Shown piece after piece: positions 24,514-33,797 of a DNA stretch of 33,797 nucleotides. Below the pieces are notes generated by a model that worked only from the letters and a program-made list of their open reading frames with translations, had not been told where the DNA came from and made no database searches. Both the position numbers and the translations under genes were made by a program. The stretch comes from Bacteroidales bacterium. Lineage in GTDB: Bacteria > Bacteroidota > Bacteroidia > Bacteroidales > JAGONC01. Location: the NCBI GenBank assembly GCA_023133655.1, contig JAGLWB010000199.1:1-33797 (forward strand). The letters are read 5' to 3'. Position 1 is the first letter of the stretch, and each line of letters starts with the position of its first letter.

Positions 24514-26208
24514 TTACCTCCCTTTTCCACTTATTTTTGCCCAGCTATCCCTCAGCGGCACGGTTCTGTTAAATACCAGTTTGTCTTCTTTTGAGTCGGG
24601 GTCAACACAGAAATAACCCAATCTGATGAACTGAAACTTTTCAAAAGGTTTCACATTTCGCAACGAGGGCTCTATAAGTCCGGTTACAGTTTTTAATGAC
24701 CCGGGATTAATAAATTCCTGGAAATCCTTATCAGGATGTCCCAGCGGATCTTCATCAAGGAAGAGCCTGTCGTAAAGTCTGACCTCAGCTTTCAATCCAT
24801 GTTGTGCGGAAACCCAATGCAAAGTACCTTTTACCTTACGATTACTTTGAGGCCCGCCGCTTTTTGTTTCCGGGTCGTATGTGCATTTTACCTCAATCAC
24901 CTCGCCAGTCGTTTCATCCTTAACCACCTCCTCGCATTTTATGAAATAGGCTCCTTTCAACCGCACCTCAGCTCCTGGTGCGAGCCTGAAAAATTTCTTC
25001 GGGGGATCCTCCATAAAATCATCCTTTTCAATAAATATTTCACGCGTAAACGGAACCTTGCGGCTGCCCATTGTTTCATCCTCCGGATTATTAACCAACT
25101 CCATCTCTTCAACTTTACCTTCAGGATAATTAGTGATCACCACCCTGAGTGGATTCAATACAGCCATTACTCTCAGCGTTTTTTTGTTCAGGTCATCCTT
25201 AACGCTGTGCTCCAGCAGTGCCACATCAATCATATTATCTCTTCTTGCAACACCTATTTTATCAGCAAAATACCGGATAGATTCGGGAGTATACCCTCTT
25301 CTCCTTAAGCCTGAAATGGTTGGCAACCGTGGGTCGTCCCACCCATTAACAAAGCCTCCTTCCACAAGCTCCATCAGTTTCCGTTTACTCATGATGGTAT
25401 AGCTCAGGTTGAGGCGGGCAAACTCGATTTGTTGCGGCCTGTATTTCGTTTCTATCAGATTATCAAGAAACCAGTCGTACAACGGCCGGTGCACTTCAAA
25501 CTCCAGTGTACATATTGAGTGAGTAATCCCCTCAATATAGTCTGACTGCCCATGAGCGAAGTCGTACATTGGATAGATACACCATTTATCGCCCGTATTA
25601 TGATGGCTGGCATGCAGGATACGGTACAGGACCGGGTCGCGCAAAAGCATGTTGGGTGATGTCGTATCAATTTTAGCACGCAGCACCTTTGAGCCATCCG
25701 GAAATTCTCCGGCTTTCATACGACGGAAAAGATTCAGGTTTTCTTCAACAGAACGGTTATAAAAAGGACTTTCTGTTCCCGGGGTTGTAACCGTACCACG
25801 CTGATCACCGATCACTTCAGCTGATTGATCGTCAACAAATGCCTTACCATTTATAATAAGCTTTTCGGCCCATTTGTAAAGCTGGTCAAAATAGTCAGAA
25901 GCATAGAAAAGTCTTCCTTCCCAATCGAAACCAAGCCATTTAACATCTTCAACAATAGAATCAACAAATTCTTCCTCTTCCTTTGTAGGGTTAGTATCAT
26001 CGAAGCGCAGGTTACACATGCCGTTATATTTTTTTGCCAGGCCGAAGTTAAGACAGATAGATTTAGCATGGCCTATATGCAAATAACCATTGGGTTCGGG
26101 AGGAAAACGGGTATGGACCCGTTTCTCATTTTTTTCTTCCTGTAGATCGTCTTCAATGATCGCCTCAATAAAGTTGAGTGCTTTATAGTTTTCGTCCTTT
26201 GTATTCAT
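24514..26208 (-). CDS. glnS: Glutamine--tRNA ligase
   Basis: [46 protein letters not shown]-terminal anticodon-binding region. ATG at 26208 or 26211; the track N-terminal extension runs through a repeat array. Confidence 0.96.
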
Positions 26209-26241
26209 CATGATGGGTTTAAACAGTTTGCAAAAATAGGA

Positions 26242-26276
26242 AAAAGCTACAAGCTGCAAGCTACAAGCTGCAAGAA
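26242..26276. repeat. Heptamer array aaaagct acaagct gcaagct acaagct gcaagaa
   Basis: Five in-register 7-nt units just upstream of the glnS start. A single copy of aaaagctgcaagaa recurs at ~26300. Confidence 0.9.
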
Positions 26277-26350
26277 ATTTCGGTGCGGTTATATGAGGTA
26301 AAAGCTGCAAGAAAGTTGAACTTTCGTTATTGATCCCGGGGAGGTAAACA

Positions 26351-26716
26351 TTAATCCACAATTTCTTCTGAAGAAAGGGAGACACACACCCGGTCCACCT
26401 TCCCACCCAGCGGCGGGTTGAGTTTTGCGATCTTAATTTCAGCCGTTTCTATCTGCGGAAATGTTTCCATGATCTTATCCAGTGTCCGCCGTGCCACATG
26501 CTCGAGGAGGTTGGATTTTTGTTCCATTTCCTGTTGTATGAGGAGGTAGAGGGATTGATAATTCACGGTTTTATGGAGGTTATCTGTTTTTTCAGCTTCC
26601 AAGGTATTTGCTTCGCAGAAGAAGTCGACGATAAATTTTGTTCCGATGATCTGTTCTTCTTTAAAGCACCCGTGGTGGGCGAAGAATTCCATTCCTTCGA
26701 TTGAGATTTGCGACAT
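26351..26716 (-). CDS. folB: Dihydroneopterin aldolase
   Basis: [69 protein letters not shown] at 26716; the longer track start (26890) reads through a heptamer array. Confidence 0.9.
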
Positions 26717-26780
26717 GGTGGTTTTTGGGGGTAAAAGTATCAAAAAATGTTGGTTATTTTTAGTTTTTGCTTCGTCTGAT

Positions 26781-26899
26781 GGTAGTGGACGGTAGGCGGT
26801 AGCCAGTAGCCGGTAGCCGGTAGTTGGCAGGCGGCAGTCACCAGTAGGCAGTCTGCAGTCTGAAATACATCGAAAATCGACAATTGACAATTGACAATC
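26781..26899. repeat. Heptamer array, 17 in-register units: ggtagcc/gccggta type, then gtctgca type, then gacaatt type
   Basis: Read directly. Register is preserved across ggtagtg gacggta ggcggta gccagta gccggta gccggta gttggca ggcggca gtcacca gtaggca gtctgca gtctgaa atacatc gaaaatc gacaatt gacaatt gacaatc. Confidence 0.93.
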
Positions 26900-26912
26900 G
26901 CCTAATTCTTTT

Positions 26913-26981
26913 GGCTCCAGAGGAGCCTAATGTTGGTAGAGAAAGGGTATCAAAGAAGTTATCACAAACCCCTTTAGGGGT
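26913..26981. repeat. REP-like element with two short palindromes (ggctccagaggagcc ... acccctttaggggt)
   Basis: Perfect hairpins at 26913-26927 and 26968-26981 around taatgttggtagagaaaggg. Confidence 0.5.
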
Positions 26982-27001
26982 GACATGGGTGAAAAGATAT
27001 C

Positions 27002-27029
27002 CGAATAACGAATAACGATATACGAATTG
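27002..27029. repeat. Heptamer array cgaataa cgaataa cgatata cgaattg
   Basis: Four in-register 7-nt units. Confidence 0.75.
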
Positions 27030-27054
27030 AATGAGGAACAGAGATTTGAGAATT

Positions 27055-27091
27055 AAAGAAGCCGTTCAGAAAAATCCAGAACGGCTTCTTT
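27055..27091. terminator. Strong bidirectional rho-independent terminator
   Basis: Perfect 13-bp stem aaagaagccgttc / gaacggcttcttt with an 11-nt loop. T-rich on both strands. Confidence 0.85.
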
Positions 27092-27190
27092 TGAGGCAAC
27101 GACCGTAAGTGAACCGTTTCCCCCTCTCTCCTTACAGCTTCAATGCTTATAGCGTTTTTTTCTCAATTTTTTCGTGACCAGAATGGCGCT

Positions 27191-27220
27191 GAATTGTGTC
27201 TGTAGCTTCTGGAATCGAAC
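27191..27220 (+). repeat. Left arm of an imperfect inverted repeat (partner 27452-27478)
   Basis: Reverse complement GTTCGATTCCAGAAGCTACAGACACAATTC versus GTTCGAATCCAGAATCAGACACAATTT: one internal substitution and a 3-nt gap apart from the end. Confidence 0.75.
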
Positions 27221-27451
27221 TATACCAAGGGTTTCAGGAGATTGAATGGAAAAAAATACCCGAAAACATCAACAATATTTTCTTGACATTCAAAACTATT
27301 GAAATTTTATTCTCAAACCTTCAACCATTGACAATTTTATTTCTGCTTTTTCTTTCCCTACAGTCATAGGGTTTTCCTCATTTGTATCCAGAGAGTGACA
27401 ACACAAAAAGAACGCTCAGGGACAAATATACAAAATTCTTGAAAACAGGCG

Positions 27452-27478
27452 GTTCGAATCCAGAATCAGACACAATTT
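27452..27478 (+). repeat. Right arm of an imperfect inverted repeat (partner 27191-27220)
   Basis: See the left arm. The arms are separated by ~231 bp without ORFs. Confidence 0.75.
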
Positions 27479-27500
27479 TTTGCCCTATTCGACGTCATTA

Positions 27501-27619
27501 AGCCTTCCCCCAAATGAAAAAACCTACCCCCATTGATAAAACCAGCCTACCCTGAAATAGTCAGCCTACCCACAAATAGCCTGCATACCCTCAAATAGTC
27601 ACCATACCTATGAATATTT
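27501..27619. repeat. Degenerate ~19-bp direct repeats (consensus ~ aGCCTACCCnnAAATAgtc)
   Basis: agcctaccctgaaatagtc (27544-27562), agcctacccacaaatagcc (27563-27581), tgcataccctcaaatagtc (27582-27600) and accatacctatgaatattt (27601-27619), each 19 nt. Two looser upstream copies from 27501. Confidence 0.75.
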
Positions 27620-27682
27620 CAACCATATTGTTTTAGAAACAATAGCGACATAATTTCGCTTTTGAATTTACCCACAGCCCAA

Positions 27683-27717
27683 AAACTTTAAACCTTGAAC
27701 CTTAAACTTTGAACCAA
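27683..27717. repeat. Heptamer array aaacttt aaacctt gaacctt aaacttt gaaccaa
   Basis: Five in-register 7-nt units ending 4 nt before ATG 27722. Confidence 0.85.
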
Positions 27718-27721
27718 AATT

Positions 27722-27970
27722 ATGTCTGAAAGAATAATTTTAATCACCGATGCCGACCTCAAAACCATCATCATCGAAGCAATCAGAGAGGTTGATGAAA
27801 CCAAACGAAAAGAGGAGCCGGAGAAGCTTCTAACGGTAAACAAAGTTGCCAGGAGAACAGGCCGCTCTCATGCAACGATCACCAAGCTAAGGAATGAAGG
27901 CGTTTTGAGATCGACTAAGGATGGGTTGATTTTGGGGTCGTCGTTGGAGGAGTATCTTTATTCTCAGTAG
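27722..27970 (+). CDS. Small helix-turn-helix (excisionase-like) DNA-binding protein
   Basis: 82 aa. C-terminal LLTVNKVARRTGRSHATITKLRNEGVLRSTKDGLILGSSLEEYL resembles HTH_17/excisionase domains of mobile elements. Confidence 0.65.
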   Translation: MSERIILITDADLKTIIIEAIREVDETKRKEEPEKLLTVNKVARRTGRSHATITKLRNEGVLRSTKDGLILGSSLEEYLYSQ

Positions 27971-28021
27971 CCGGTAGCCAGTAGCCAGTAGCCAGTCCGC
28001 AGTTGGCAGTCGGCGGTAATT
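27966..28021. repeat. Heptamer array agtagcc ggtagcc agtagcc agtagcc agtccgc agttggc agtcggc ggtaatt
   Basis: Eight in-register 7-nt units. The first contains the TAG stop of the upstream HTH gene. Confidence 0.9.
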
Positions 28022-28100
28022 TGAAAATATAGCCAACCGTTGAAATTCGGGCCGGGTTTGACGCTATCGAGTTGGGCCCGGTTTTTTTATTAATCATTGG

Positions 28101-29102
28101 TTAACCCGGATTAATTTGTCGAAATCTATTTTTCAGTTCAATCAGTCGTTCAATTAAATCAGGAAAAGACAATGGTTCACCATAAATTATGTATTCACAC
28201 ATTTTATTATAATCTGCTTTCCACTCAGCAATTACTTCACCAGGTGGTATAAAGTCAATTCTATCAGGACTATGTTTTGCATAATCCACACCACCTAGGC
28301 GAGTAAATTTTTCACGATGCTTAACAATTGATTTATAGAGTTCAAAGTCCTTTAAAGCTGCTTTACCATGTTCGGTATCCATCATTTTTTCAAGATCAAA
28401 TAAATGACGGCTTTTCCTTTCTGATTTCATTTTATCCCTGGGCCTCTGAAATTCTTCATGTAAGAGGAATGCTTTTTCCAGAAAAGTCTTTTTGGGTAAA
28501 ACAATGGGAATGTTTGCCGGATAATCAGCGAATTCTAGTTCTGAAAATGCTTCGCCCACCATTGATTGTATGGGACGAGCTTCAATCGGTTCCATCAGCG
28601 AACGGGCCCCAACTTCAATTAAAACCCGTGGATTCAAATAATCTGATTTTTCAGTTATTGAAGCGTAAAAAAGTTGTACTTCAACAGGATCAGTATCCGA
28701 GGCATCAAAATCCTTTACAGATAGTTCAAAATTCGAAATTCCCATATTTTTTAACACACTTTCAAGCTTTTTAAAAAACACAGTACTTATATACTTACAA
28801 GACGCTCTTCGTAGTTTTCGGATTTGCCCACTATTCAGGTCATTATCATATCCAAATAGTTTACGACCCATTGCCAGGTCAATATCTTCGGAGAATCGCT
28901 CAATCAGGTTCCACCCTTTACTCAACGAAGTGCCACCCTTGAAAACAATATGTTCTGAAAAGGGTAATGCGAAAATGGCTTTCAATGTCAGGGTGACCCA
29001 CCAATCTTTTTCGATGGCCGCAGGTGGCAAGTCTGTTTGGTTACTTACCTGGTTAAAAATCTCAAGCTTTCTCTGTTCGCTTAGATCAAAGAATTTTTTC
29101 AT
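28101..29102 (-). CDS. AbiEii/AbiGii-type nucleotidyltransferase toxin
   Basis: FKGGTSLSKGWNLIERFSEDIDLAMG (GG[T/S]xLS...DxDL nucleotidyltransferase motif) and IEKDWWVTLTLKAIF. Downstream of and overlapping an AbiEi-like gene. Confidence 0.85.
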   Translation of the reverse strand: MKKFFDLSEQRKLEIFNQVSNQTDLPPAAIEKDWWVTLTLKAIFALPFSEHIVFKGGTSLSKGWNLIERFSEDIDLAMGRKLFGYDNDLNSGQIRKLRRASCKYISTVFFKKLESVLKNMGISNFELSVKDFDASDTDPVEVQLFYASITEKSDYLNPRVLIEVGARSLMEPIEARPIQSMVGEAFSELEFADYPANIPIVLPKKTFLEKAFLLHEEFQRPRDKMKSERKSRHLFDLEKMMDTEHGKAALKDFELYKSIVKHREKFTRLGGVDYAKHSPDRIDFIPPGEVIAEWKADYNKMCEYIIYGEPLSFPDLIERLIELKNRFRQINPG

Positions 29103-29736
29103 AATTCAATTCTGCTTTTTTCGCAGCCAACATAATTTTTGCGATCCAGGCCGGAGCTAAACATGCATCATCCAATACTTTTTGCAGATCTTCTTTTTGC
29201 AAAAGTTTATGTATTCTTGCTAACTGTTCATTGGTTACATTATCCTTCCCAATTTCACGCAGGGCCTGAATGACCAGGCCACTTATCTCCCCTTCTGCCG
29301 ATAGGTTTTTGGGTGTTGTTTTTTTAAATTTTATAGTCCGCTTGCCAATTTGTATGCTTCTGGGGGCACCATCAGTAAGGAAAACCACTTTCAGAGGAAC
29401 TTGAGTTGAAAGACCTAATTTGTTGAGCGCTTGCAAACCGGTTGGGAAAATCCGGGCTTTGTCACGTTTAGCAATTGCCTTTGCAATTTCTTCTACAGGA
29501 GGATACAGAGTGCCAAGTTCTTTATCTTGTTTTGGATATAGATAAATACCATGTGCCAGATGAACAATCAGATCATCCTTAGCAAGTCTATGTAGAGCCT
29601 GCCTGATAGCATCTACACTTCCGGTATCAATAAAATCTTCAGGGAAAAAAACTTTACCACGTTTATGATTCTTGATTTTATCAAGAATCCTTTTATCAGT
29701 AGTATTTCTTGTTTTATCTTTAGGTCGAGCAGTCAT
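29086..29736 (-). CDS. AbiEi-type antitoxin/transcriptional regulator (DUF6088-like)
   Basis: GKVFFPEDFIDTGSVDAIRQALHRLAKDDLIVHLAHGIYLYPKQD winged-helix N-terminus, overlapping the toxin start. ATG at 29736 is preferred over GTG at 29757. Confidence 0.82.
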   Translation of the reverse strand: MTARPKDKTRNTTDKRILDKIKNHKRGKVFFPEDFIDTGSVDAIRQALHRLAKDDLIVHLAHGIYLYPKQDKELGTLYPPVEEIAKAIAKRDKARIFPTGLQALNKLGLSTQVPLKVVFLTDGAPRSIQIGKRTIKFKKTTPKNLSAEGEISGLVIQALREIGKDNVTNEQLARIHKLLQKEDLQKVLDDACLAPAWIAKIMLAAKKAELNYEKIL

Positions 29737-29752
29737 TTCAGCATCTTTTTCT

Positions 29753-29779
29753 GTCACAAATATAGCATAAATTTGTGAC
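29753..29779 (-). promoter_or_regulatory. Palindromic operator overlapping the -7 promoter box of the AbiE pair
   Basis: Perfect 9-bp inverted repeat gtcacaaat-N9-atttgtgac. The minus-strand TATATTTG (plus 29757-29764) matches TAnnTTTG. Confidence 0.65.
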
Positions 29780-30103
29780 GAAGTAATACTTTTTTTTTCA
29801 TTACTATCAACTCTATTGACAACTTCCCAATTATCAATTGTTTTATTGGCACCTCCTGCTCCATCATCTCCTCTACAATCATCACTTCAATCCTCCGGAA
29901 TGCTGTACTTCTGTAAGGATTCAACGTGTATAGCTATAAAATAAGGAGCTTTTACTACCATAAAACGCGGGTTTCCTTAGAGGAGTAAAGGAAAGAAGGG
30001 GAAATGCAATCAAAATAATTGGTTCAAAGTATAAGGCATTGCTAAGTCTAAGCTAAAGCGATTTCCAATTTTCTTCTTTCCATTGGTTTGATCGGTTTAT
30101 GTT

Positions 30104-30226
30104 ATGGATGGCATAGATATAGATTTGTGTAAAACATGTAAGCAGGGCCTGCTGGTAGTAGTTGAAAAATGGACAAAGGACCGCGCATCGCCATTGCAAA
30201 AGCATCTGGCCGGAATGACCGCATAG
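30104..30226 (+). pseudogene. Possible transposase C-terminal remnant with a CxxC motif (MDGIDIDLCKTCKQGLLVVVEKWTKDRASPLQKHLAGMTA)
   Basis: 40-codon ORF with LCKTCKQGLLVVVE in an otherwise ORF-poor interval. IS91-type origin is only a suggestion. Confidence 0.25.
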
Positions 30227-30625
30227 TACGGTTAACCGACATTTTCTTTCTTTTTGTTGGGCTTATGCACTGTCATAGCATTAGTATACTATGCCTGGAA
30301 ACCAGGAAAAACCGATAGCCGGTCATATAATCCGGCAGGAAACATCATCATTATCATCAATTCAAGAAAAATGGAACATATTAACACCAAATATCAATGC
30401 TTCAAATTGGCCAATAACACCTCAATCTGCGAAAAAGCCTATATTGAAATTACACAGGAAAAATTTCTTGTCTTTTAGCAACCCATAGTGCAAAGGTTTG
30501 GTTCAACACAGGGACAAACACAGTAGAGTCCCCCGGATCATACATGTGTTTGATCCCTGATTATTATGCCACGTTTTTTTTAAATCAATTAATCAAACAT
30601 GACTGCTAAAACTGATTTCATTAAA

Positions 30626-31906
30626 TCAAGATAAATCAGTGTTGTATGTTGGTTGATATTCTCTAATCCAACGCTTTTCTGCGTACTTTCTTACATTTTC
30701 ATCATCAGGTGCAAAAGTTTCAAGACAAAAAAAGTCAAAAGCCTCAACACCATATTTATTAAAGTGCTCTTGCATTAATTTTGAATGATGCTCTCCAAGT
30801 GCTAACTCACCTATATGAGTCTTTTTTCGGAACTCCATGTTTTGAGATTCACCAATATAGAAGTCTAATGTTTTATTATCTACAATGAGATAAACGCCAG
30901 AATCTCCATAGCTAATAGCTCCAGGTTTAATTGTGTATTTCGACAGTTCTATAAGCTTACCTGCAGTAGATGCTTTAATGCGTTTTTCTTCTTTTTTGGT
31001 TTCTTCAATATTTTTTTGCTCATTTTTAAGGTCTTGTTTAATCTGATTAACTACTTCATTATAAGTATCTATCTTGTAAATACTTACATCATTTATTGAT
31101 TTGTCTTTAAAAAATTCAATATGTTCTTTTAGTAATTTATAATCATTTGTATATCTGTTATAATTATCAATACAGGTATTTATTGTTCTCCAGAAATCAG
31201 GTTTAATGGGATCAAAGTGAGCTTCCTCCTCCATTAGATAAGGTGTAGAGACAATATACCTAATAGGACTGTATACATCACCATTTTTATTACGAAGTGT
31301 ATAATCCTCATATCTTACTTCCGATTTAGGAAAAAGGTGTCCCCTGTAAATAGCTCTCCAAACAGAACATTTTCCGTCATTTTCACTAAATAATCTTTCC
31401 CATTTAATTGTCTTAACACCATTTACCTCTGTAACATCATAGAAATGTTCAACAAATAAATCAAAAAGACTTATTTTGGATTTCAATTCATTGATAAAAT
31501 CTTGGATTTCATCTCTTAATGTTAAATAATCATTTATATTTTGTTTTTTGCTCCTAAATAGTTTCTCCTGCTTAATCTCAAAGTATCTTTCTGCTTCATA
31601 CAACTTACTATTGTATTCATCATCAATGTCAAATTCGTAATTTTTTAACAATTCATCGCGATTAGGATTATTTTCTAATAGCAACAAAAATAATCTATCC
31701 TCAGCCTGTCCTACAGGAATACGAAAAGCACGATTTCTATTATCTACTGCATCTTCTGGATAATTATGATAATATGCTTTCCGATATTCATCAAAATATT
31801 TCTTAACACCATATTTAGTAGGATTAATAAGCCAATCAAACTTTTTTCTATTGATCCTTGCTTTTTCAGCTATTTCTTTTAGATGTTGTTCCATGTCAAA
31901 AGCCAT
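30626..31906 (-). CDS. Protein with C-terminal GIY-YIG nuclease domain and a long N-terminal region of unknown function
   Basis: C-terminus SGVYLIVDNKTLDFYIGESQNMEFRKKTH...EKRWIREYQPTYNTD has the GIY and YIG elements, a following Arg, and the late Glu/Asn. Residues 1-~330 not recognised. Confidence 0.75.
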   Translation of the reverse strand: MAFDMEQHLKEIAEKARINRKKFDWLINPTKYGVKKYFDEYRKAYYHNYPEDAVDNRNRAFRIPVGQAEDRLFLLLLENNPNRDELLKNYEFDIDDEYNSKLYEAERYFEIKQEKLFRSKKQNINDYLTLRDEIQDFINELKSKISLFDLFVEHFYDVTEVNGVKTIKWERLFSENDGKCSVWRAIYRGHLFPKSEVRYEDYTLRNKNGDVYSPIRYIVSTPYLMEEEAHFDPIKPDFWRTINTCIDNYNRYTNDYKLLKEHIEFFKDKSINDVSIYKIDTYNEVVNQIKQDLKNEQKNIEETKKEEKRIKASTAGKLIELSKYTIKPGAISYGDSGVYLIVDNKTLDFYIGESQNMEFRKKTHIGELALGEHHSKLMQEHFNKYGVEAFDFFCLETFAPDDENVRKYAEKRWIREYQPTYNTDLS

Positions 31907-32063
31907 AATGTTTATTGTTATTAATCAGTTTGAATATGGTGCGTTTTGCATTTTGAAATGCTTTATTTTCAATTTAATCCTATTTTTTATTGCTATAATC
32001 TTTATATTTAGCACAATCGGCAAAATGCACTATGTTTTTGTTTTAGTCCGTTAATTCTTTTAA

Positions 32064-32978
32064 TCAATCTTCCATTAAACTTGCTAAATACTCCTGCTCA
32101 CTATAATATAGCATTATTCCGATATATATAGGTTCTAATTTCTGATTATTATTTTTAAATTTTTCAAATGATAATTCAATGTCTTGATTTTTTGTAGTCT
32201 CTATTTGTCTTTTTAGTTTAGTCAATTTCTCTTGATTTACATCAAACCATTTCTGTCTAAATTTGGGGATAAGACTTCTATAATCTAATCCTTTATTCAT
32301 TTCTTTCTTGATTTCATAATCATAGAAGTATTGATTTTTGACAATTTTATTTAACTCACTCCAATCTTCGTTTGCATCACATTCATAAAAGTTTTCAATT
32401 GTTTCAATTAATTCCGATAATATTTCCGATAATATTTCTTGAGGAGTAGTAGAACTTGAGCAAATATATGTATTTAATCTTGAAATTATTTCTTTGAATT
32501 CTGTTATATTTTCTTTTCTTTTTATTGTATCACTTGCCTTTTTTGATTTGTCTGAGTATCCTGTAATTCCTATTTCAATAAATTGTGAAAAATATTTCTC
32601 TAAAAATTTCGAGTAAAACAAAATACAATATTCTGTTACTTTTTCATTTTCAAATAGTTTATGATATAGATTATTACGTGAAGTATGACAAAAATTAATA
32701 ATAGATGCTTCACCTATGGATATTATCTCAAGTTTTTTTGCTTGCGTTACAATGTTGCTAAAACGGTCAAAATTGCTAACTATATTTTTATAATCACATT
32801 TATCTAATTCTTTCATTACTAACAAATGGTGCAATTCTGATGTAGTTTTACTTTTGAGTAAATTCTCGACAATATTATCAAATAGGATAAGACTAATTCT
32901 TTTGTATTCGAATGTGTCATTATTTGCAAGAGAAATTGCTTCTCCTAATTGTGCATAATATAAATTTTTACGTTCCAT
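32064..32978 (-). CDS. HEPN-like protein with an RX4H motif
   Basis: 304 aa, predicted mostly helical. FCHTSRNNLYHKLFENEKVTEYCILFYSKFLEKYF contains R101-N-N-L-Y-H106 (plus coordinates 32661-32678), matching the HEPN RNxxxH signature in a helix-rich context. Confidence 0.55.
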   Translation of the reverse strand: MERKNLYYAQLGEAISLANNDTFEYKRISLILFDNIVENLLKSKTTSELHHLLVMKELDKCDYKNIVSNFDRFSNIVTQAKKLEIISIGEASIINFCHTSRNNLYHKLFENEKVTEYCILFYSKFLEKYFSQFIEIGITGYSDKSKKASDTIKRKENITEFKEIISRLNTYICSSSTTPQEILSEILSELIETIENFYECDANEDWSELNKIVKNQYFYDYEIKKEMNKGLDYRSLIPKFRQKWFDVNQEKLTKLKRQIETTKNQDIELSFEKFKNNNQKLEPIYIGIMLYYSEQEYLASLMED

Positions 32979-33071
32979 TCAGGTTTACTTTAATGCCTTA
33001 TATTAAACAGCTAAAGTTTAACATATTGTTTATGTGTGTTTTTTCTAGTTGAGTTTTTCCTGAAATGTTCT

Positions 33072-33113
33072 TTAAGGCACATGCTTTACAAAGTTAAAGG
33101 CACATGCTTTACA
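33072..33113. repeat. Transposon-end direct repeats (t[ta]aaggcacatgctttaca x2)
   Basis: aaggcacatgctttaca at 33074-33090 and 33097-33113, 23-nt spacing, at the 3' end of the transposase fragment. Confidence 0.75.
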
Positions 33114-33696
33114 CTAAATTAGTGCTTAGCCTGGTTGATTTTTGTTTAACTCTAATATCATTTTCACTGAAGTATCCCAAAAATACATCTCTATAGAATA
33201 CTTTCCAAATTCCATTACCAATTTCTTCAGCCCCAACTTGTTTTCCTATTAGACCGTTAGTTATAAACACCCAATAATATGATTTCCATCTAACAGATTC
33301 ATTCATTGTAACATTCATTACTTTAATGTGCGATGGGTAGTCATAAGATTTAATCTTTTCAGGAAAAGGAATCGATGATCTAATATGGACTTTTTTTGGT
33401 GTTTCCATGTTCAATGCCTCATGCGGTCTTATGTTATTATACTCTCTTACAAACGAGTTTGATTTTCTTTGTTGAGACCTCATATCAAATCCTGCCGGTG
33501 ATACACATTCTGCTTTTAAATCTCTATGCATTCTCTCATGCCTTCCGTTTTGTTCAGGGTGTGCAGGGTCTAAGAATACAGGCATAATTCCTAAGTCAAT
33601 AAACCAGTTGTAAACAGAAAAATAAAGTAAACACTTTTTAGAAAAATAAAGGTAACACTTTTGAGTGAGTTTCAGTAAGATTTTGAGCATACTCAA
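33109..33696 (-). pseudogene. Truncated IS481-like DDE transposase (C-terminal part), fused in frame to IS-end sequence
   Basis: WFIDLGIMPVFLDPAHPEQNGRHERMHRDLKAECVSP is an rve/IS481 core C-terminus with the catalytic-Glu region. The N-terminal ~30 codons lie in the adjacent repeat-bearing IS end, and the first two catalytic Asp motifs are missing. Confidence 0.75.
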
Positions 33697-33797
33697 AACT
33701 CTACTGAAGATGAAAATATCTCAAGCAAAACGTGTTATCATGTATTACCGAATCAAGAAGTATTTAAGTGAGGGATTAACCATATCCAAGATTAGCA
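33609..33797 (+). mobile_element. Left end of an IS (IS21-like?), truncated by the window edge
   Basis: TGTAAAC at 33609. Two 23-bp direct repeats agaaaaataaagtaaacactttt (33616-33638) and agaaaaataaaggtaacactttt (33640-33662). An ORF start follows: MKISQAKRVIMYYRIKKYLSEGLTISKIS... (33710 onward), an HTH-like transposase N-terminus. Confidence 0.55.

Follow-up and report, generated by a model that had tools for sequence, protein, structure and literature searches.

Two adjacent genes near the end of a Bacteroidales contig, one encoding a protein with an RNNLYH (HEPN RX4H) motif and the other a protein that ends in a GIY-YIG nuclease signature, raise the question of whether they form one coupled nuclease module, as a first-pass annotation had proposed, or two genes that merely lie side by side. 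We analysed the whole 33,797-nt stretch (the window), which is contig C111 of a 3.76 Mb assembly in 428 contigs and gives sequence up to position 33797. The first-pass annotation had placed both genes on the minus strand, 157 nt apart, and the ORF listing agrees with it exactly (Table 1). Both frames begin with ATG, and their length is well beyond chance: across 500 dinucleotide-Markov versions of the stretch, no stop-free run exceeded 135 codons. The surroundings were also said to be AT-rich, and indeed the G+C content is 25.1% in the HEPN gene and 29.9% in the GIY-YIG gene against 39.3% for positions 1–30000, a difference (25–30% versus 39%) which fits recent acquisition of the patch.

Table 1. 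Features of the HEPN/GIY-YIG locus. Coordinates are those of the window; the last column gives the evidence on which each assignment is based.
Feature	Coordinates	Strand	Evidence
HEPN-family gene, 304 aa, RNNLYH with D34, N35, E38	32064..32978	-	ORF, invariant residues, predicted fold
GIY-YIG nuclease gene, 426 aa, C-terminal catalytic domain	30626..31906	-	ORF, Pfam, NCBIfam, PDB, motifs
Orphan N-terminal part of GIY-YIG protein (residues 1-335)	30902..31906	-	searches all negative
Intergenic gap HEPN/GIY-YIG, 157 nt	31907..32063	.	terminator/promoter scan
Truncated IS transposase, rve_3 integrase core, adjoins contig end	33109..33696	-	ORF + Pfam
AbiEi antitoxin (DUF6088), neighbour defence/TA gene outside pair	29086..29757	-	Pfam, PADLOC
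AbiEii nucleotidyltransferase toxin, neighbour gene	28101..29102	-	Pfam, PADLOC

The pair had been described as lying between an AbiE system and IS elements. The AbiE side of this description holds, with AbiEi and AbiEii both intact at 28101–29757 by domain and PADLOC matches and, beyond them, housekeeping genes such as that for glutaminyl-tRNA synthetase (read from ORFs). The IS side amounts to a truncated transposase fragment with an rve_3 domain, which flanks the pair on one side only, next to the contig end. A defence-like setting is borne out both by the nearby AbiE genes and by the defence genes found beside relatives of the HEPN protein (see below). Small open frames are seen at 29754–30205. 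Duplicated repeats of 20–24 nt occur at 33071–33113 and 33605–33663; those of the first region are 20 nt long and resemble an IS terminus, a 57-bp piece of the second region is found again on contig C197, and together the two regions look like the ends of two nested IS elements at the contig end.

The RNNLYH motif occupies residues 101–106 of the 304-aa protein. By itself the loose motif is weak evidence because an R[NDH]-to-H pattern is present in 4.4% of shuffled proteins, the fuller RN..YH form being found in 0.03%, and no above-threshold match to the protein was obtained in Pfam, PADLOC, PHROG or NCBIfam. The family was first reached through two relatives, a distant one from a further genome of the same class (L020) and one carried by a Paraburkholderia plasmid (L035; BLAST E 3e-9 in pairwise comparison). 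The remaining hits from L018 to L030 were rejected as chance, their ORFs reading, for example, as pseudouridine synthase, aspartate carbamoyltransferase-like proteins and coiled coils. The relatives, other than the single close one described below, share only about 16–28% identity with the window protein. D34, N35, V37, E38, H98, R101, N102, Y105 and H106 are invariant both across nine sequences from several phyla, where R27 is invariant too, and in a second alignment of ten sequences, and the R101/N102/H106 motif itself does not vary in the relatives. The active site of HEPN RNases, which yield 2',3'-cyclic ends, consists of Rx4-6H with a polar residue after the arginine and an acidic residue upstream (PMC3710099); here, the polar residue is N102, following R101, and the upstream acids are D34 and E38.

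An AlphaFold2 model of the HEPN protein, built on the ten-sequence alignment, reached a pLDDT of about 85–90 at residues 11–70 and of about 67–87 over the remainder of the HEPN core. Foldseek matched this model to 1wwp (probability 0.97, target-normalised TM 0.68, E = 0.73), which is listed as HEPN-T (PMC3710099), and with lower confidence to the HEPN toxins 8xdj and 6m6u. The E-values are not significant, and the fold call therefore rests on motif and fold together. With a HEPN core predicted and the catalytic residues conserved in distant relatives, the original reading of RNNLYH as a HEPN motif stands, and alignment and model support the assignment of the 304-aa protein to the HEPN superfamily, as a member of a family that carries no name in any library tested.

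A profile scan of the genomes of 84,980 species returned a sole close relative of the HEPN protein, on the Bacteroidales MAG contig JAQUBO010000139.1 (L044), which is 78% identical over all 304 residues. Comparison of the two genes gives dN 0.138 and dS 1.47 (dN/dS about 0.09), indicating that the protein has been kept by selection. In L044 the gene is the third of a tight operon (L044:2306-8915) that encodes, in order, a 1308-aa sacsin/HSP90-like ATPase matching PADLOC TmtA (Tiamat) at 1197 bits, a 589-aa AAA_11/AAA_12 SF1 helicase and the HEPN protein, whose start codon overlaps the stop codon of the helicase gene. An AAA_21/RloB pair lies farther upstream, and the sequence after the HEPN gene (L044:8917-9390) contains a GTTAGGC-type stretch, possibly a recombination site.

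The window gene could be viewed as the leftover of a TmtA–SF1 helicase–HEPN operon that lost its upstream genes as IS elements moved in, the GIY-YIG gene being an unrelated neighbour. In favour of such a history, the truncated transposase occupies the place where the upstream genes are expected, and TmtA and the helicase are both without a match elsewhere in the window's 428-contig assembly. However, the ~93 bp separating the HEPN start from the IS end show no similarity to the 3' end of the helicase gene, and the DNA similarity between the window and L044 covers 32066–32969, only the HEPN gene, and stops at the gene edge. Moreover, the gene has kept an intact frame and shows purifying selection, and other TmtA homologues have no detectable HEPN partner: neither helicase nor HEPN was detected with L060 or L061, while L062 has the helicase and no HEPN before its contig ends. 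The HEPN gene is thus an optional part of the TmtA module. The far side of the IS lies past the contig end at 33797, and on the evidence in view we regard loss of an operon as an unlikely origin of the window gene.

The more distant relatives are found in a variety of neighbourhoods. On a plasmid of Agrobacterium sp. T29 (L041, 395-4936) the HEPN gene comes directly after the Lamassu genes LmuA-LmuC-LmuB, and a few kb farther downstream there is a Shedu gene; Qat genes lie near the family member on the Paraburkholderia plasmid (L035); and one distant member is separated by a short gene from the AAA ATPase (PADLOC type PDC-S06) that it follows. In a Phycisphaeraceae MAG (L051; JANQFR010000072.1, 6436-10000) the HEPN gene stands between RtcB and RtcA (Pfam 2e-102 and 3e-80, respectively) with abutting or overlapping codons. 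The RNA ends on which the Rtc enzymes work are of the 2',3'-cyclic-phosphate type that HEPN RNases make (PMC3710099, PMC7790460), and so this context, from a single locus, independently points to RNA cleavage. On Rhizobium/Agrobacterium plasmids (L037:3195-5191 and L039:3195-5205) the HEPN gene overlaps an unassigned 240-aa gene by 4 nt and precedes a DUF982 gene, with a zeta toxin nearby; the HEPN, 240-aa and DUF982 genes form a possible three-gene module. That the family occurs alongside Lamassu and Qat genes, and in one locus is enclosed by RtcB and RtcA, suggests that it is a portable RNase component.

The 426-aa protein was said to carry a GIY-YIG signature at its C-terminus, and this was confirmed. 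The domain spans about residues 336–422 (337–422 in Pfam PF01541, which scores 31.1 bits, 3e-7, where the cutoff is 22.6), and the catalytic domain of I-TevI (PDB 1mk0) was matched at 6e-5. The motifs are GVYL at 337, YIGES at 350, EFRKKTH at 358, AEKRW at 409 and TYNTD at 420, of which GVY337, YIG350, the arginine of EFRKKTH and the glutamate of AEKRW align with the catalytic residues of I-TevI. The asparagine of TYN is at the expected place, giving a complete catalytic set.

The first ~330 residues had been called unassignable, and they proved so in every collection searched. The N-terminal ~335 residues have no relative in Pfam, PHROGs, PADLOC or NCBIfam; nothing was found in phages and plasmids (tblastn to E = 1), in viral contigs (several peptide sets), in the genome contigs collection or in 297, 395 and 393 genomes (partly overlapping) drawn from the same phylum, class and order. 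Hits at L014, L032, L033 and L034 were rejected as chance matches to unrelated proteins, e.g. murD. A coiled-coil-like stretch is predicted in this part on the strength of sub-threshold hits to DH_ALS2/THOC7, and the structure model of the whole protein (mean pLDDT 35) was unusable.

These features bear on whether the GIY-YIG gene could be selfish, encoding a nuclease of homing or mobile-element type that is carried independently and has no host function. Its catalytic domain is nearest to those of group I intron endonucleases, with matches to TIGR01453 (51.1 bits) and a PHROG homing endonuclease in addition to I-TevI, and IS material is close by. Homing endonucleases of the I-TevI type sit in an intron or gene whose uninterrupted allele is the target; an empty site for the window gene was not found. 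The TIGR01453 score is nevertheless below the cutoff of 56.05, and no intron (no Rfam match) was seen at 26000–33797. Furthermore, the domain is C-terminal, the opposite of the arrangement in I-TevI and in the ORFs of L053 and L065, where it is N-terminal. The homing-type label, which the first-pass annotation had entertained, applies to the ancestry of the catalytic domain and fails for the architecture, and a purely selfish nuclease is in our estimation rather improbable. Judged from its sequence, the protein belongs to a known superfamily by its catalytic domain and is outside the homing family by its architecture.

Do the two genes belong together? The 157-nt gap contains no terminator-like site, so co-transcription is possible, and sigma-70-type sites in it are not above chance. 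The shared strand, the low G+C of both genes and the gap with no terminator detected in it all fit a common transcript. Together with the AbiE genes next door, they also suit a single abortive-infection system in which the GIY-YIG protein senses or cuts foreign DNA and the HEPN protein cuts RNA. Against this, none of the 17 HEPN-family loci has a GIY-YIG ORF in its examined flanks, searched with the window protein and with a profile of twelve GIY-YIG domains. The closest relative is instead partnered by TmtA and the helicase, in a genome that contains no match to the window GIY-YIG protein, and the gap itself is unlike the tight overlaps of L044 and L051. The L044 contig ends 478 bp after the HEPN gene and the flanks of L047 and L048 are also cut, the three sequences stopping some 60–480 bp from it, so that in these three loci a GIY-YIG partner could lie farther downstream.

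The claimed two-gene module is thus not supported. Recurrent adjacency was not seen as far as the neighbourhood search extended, the closest HEPN relative has other partners and the N-terminus of the GIY-YIG protein has no relative. A pairing of this kind would be of consequence only given co-occurrence, which the loci searched did not show, and we consider a single coupled system the least probable of the alternatives weighed here. The comparative sequence evidence favours two independent genes over a coupled pair, and there may be a recent, local partnership between them. Our preferred explanation, which we hold to be probable, is that the small AT-rich patch next to the AbiE system received two accessory genes that act independently of each other. 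A bolder version, which we put forward tentatively and think unlikely to hold in full, is that the HEPN protein represents an uncatalogued portable effector family common to several sensor systems and to RtcB/RtcA, and that its GIY-YIG neighbour recognises foreign DNA through a domain that is wholly new.

For two independently acting genes, we infer RNase and DNase activities, their targets and a role in defence as follows. Two HEPN subunits would bring their R101-N102...H106 motifs together with the acidic helix bearing D34 and E38, and the dimer would cleave RNA of the cell or of a phage by a metal-independent reaction that leaves 2',3'-cyclic phosphate and 5'-OH termini, bringing translation to a halt during infection or stress. 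HEPN relatives sit with varied sensors, namely TmtA and an SF1 helicase, Lamassu or AAA ATPases, or else with the RNA-repair proteins RtcB and RtcA, and a protein paired with such differing modules behaves as a portable effector; the window protein stands without a recognised sensor in its own genome. The GIY-YIG protein would act as a single-chain DNA endonuclease, in which the I-TevI-like C-terminal domain cuts under the direction of a private N-terminal recognition part.

Comparison with known systems places the two proteins separately. AbiE (AbiEi/AbiEii) is an intact neighbour and a separate two-gene system that has no domain in common with the pair. In MNT-HEPN toxin-antitoxin modules the HEPN gene adjoins a minimal nucleotidyltransferase (MNT) antitoxin, whereas none directly adjoins the window gene, whose immediate neighbours are the IS fragment and the GIY-YIG gene; the sole nucleotidyltransferase seen in the vicinity is AbiEii, about 3 kb off and with its own AbiEi. 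The GIY-YIG protein has the same catalytic domain and residues as I-TevI-like homing endonucleases, but the domain order is reversed and there is no recognised NUMOD or DNA-binding C-terminus. Like CMoRE (PD-T4-3), a single-protein GIY-YIG phage defence, it is a single chain that combines GIY-YIG with an orphan and possibly recognition domain; unlike CMoRE, in which the domain is an N-terminal GIYxY-YIG (PMC12923530), its domain is C-terminal and its motif, GVYLI, lacks the third tyrosine. A homing-type catalytic domain may have been reused here behind an uncharacterised sensor.

With HEPN RNases (HEPN-T/1wwp and the toxins 6m6u and 8xdj) the window protein has in common the Rx4H motif with a polar residue after the arginine, the acid in an upstream helix and the helical-bundle core; it differs from them in matching no Pfam or PADLOC family above threshold and in a ~170-residue helical extension after the core. 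It is also homologous, at 78% identity, to the product of the third gene in the Tiamat locus of L044, whereas TmtA and the helicase have no match in the genome of the window. The presence of this unnamed HEPN family beside Tiamat-, Lamassu- and Qat-type genes, and once within an RtcB/RtcA operon, would connect immunity by RNA cutting with RNA repair in a way that is open to testing.
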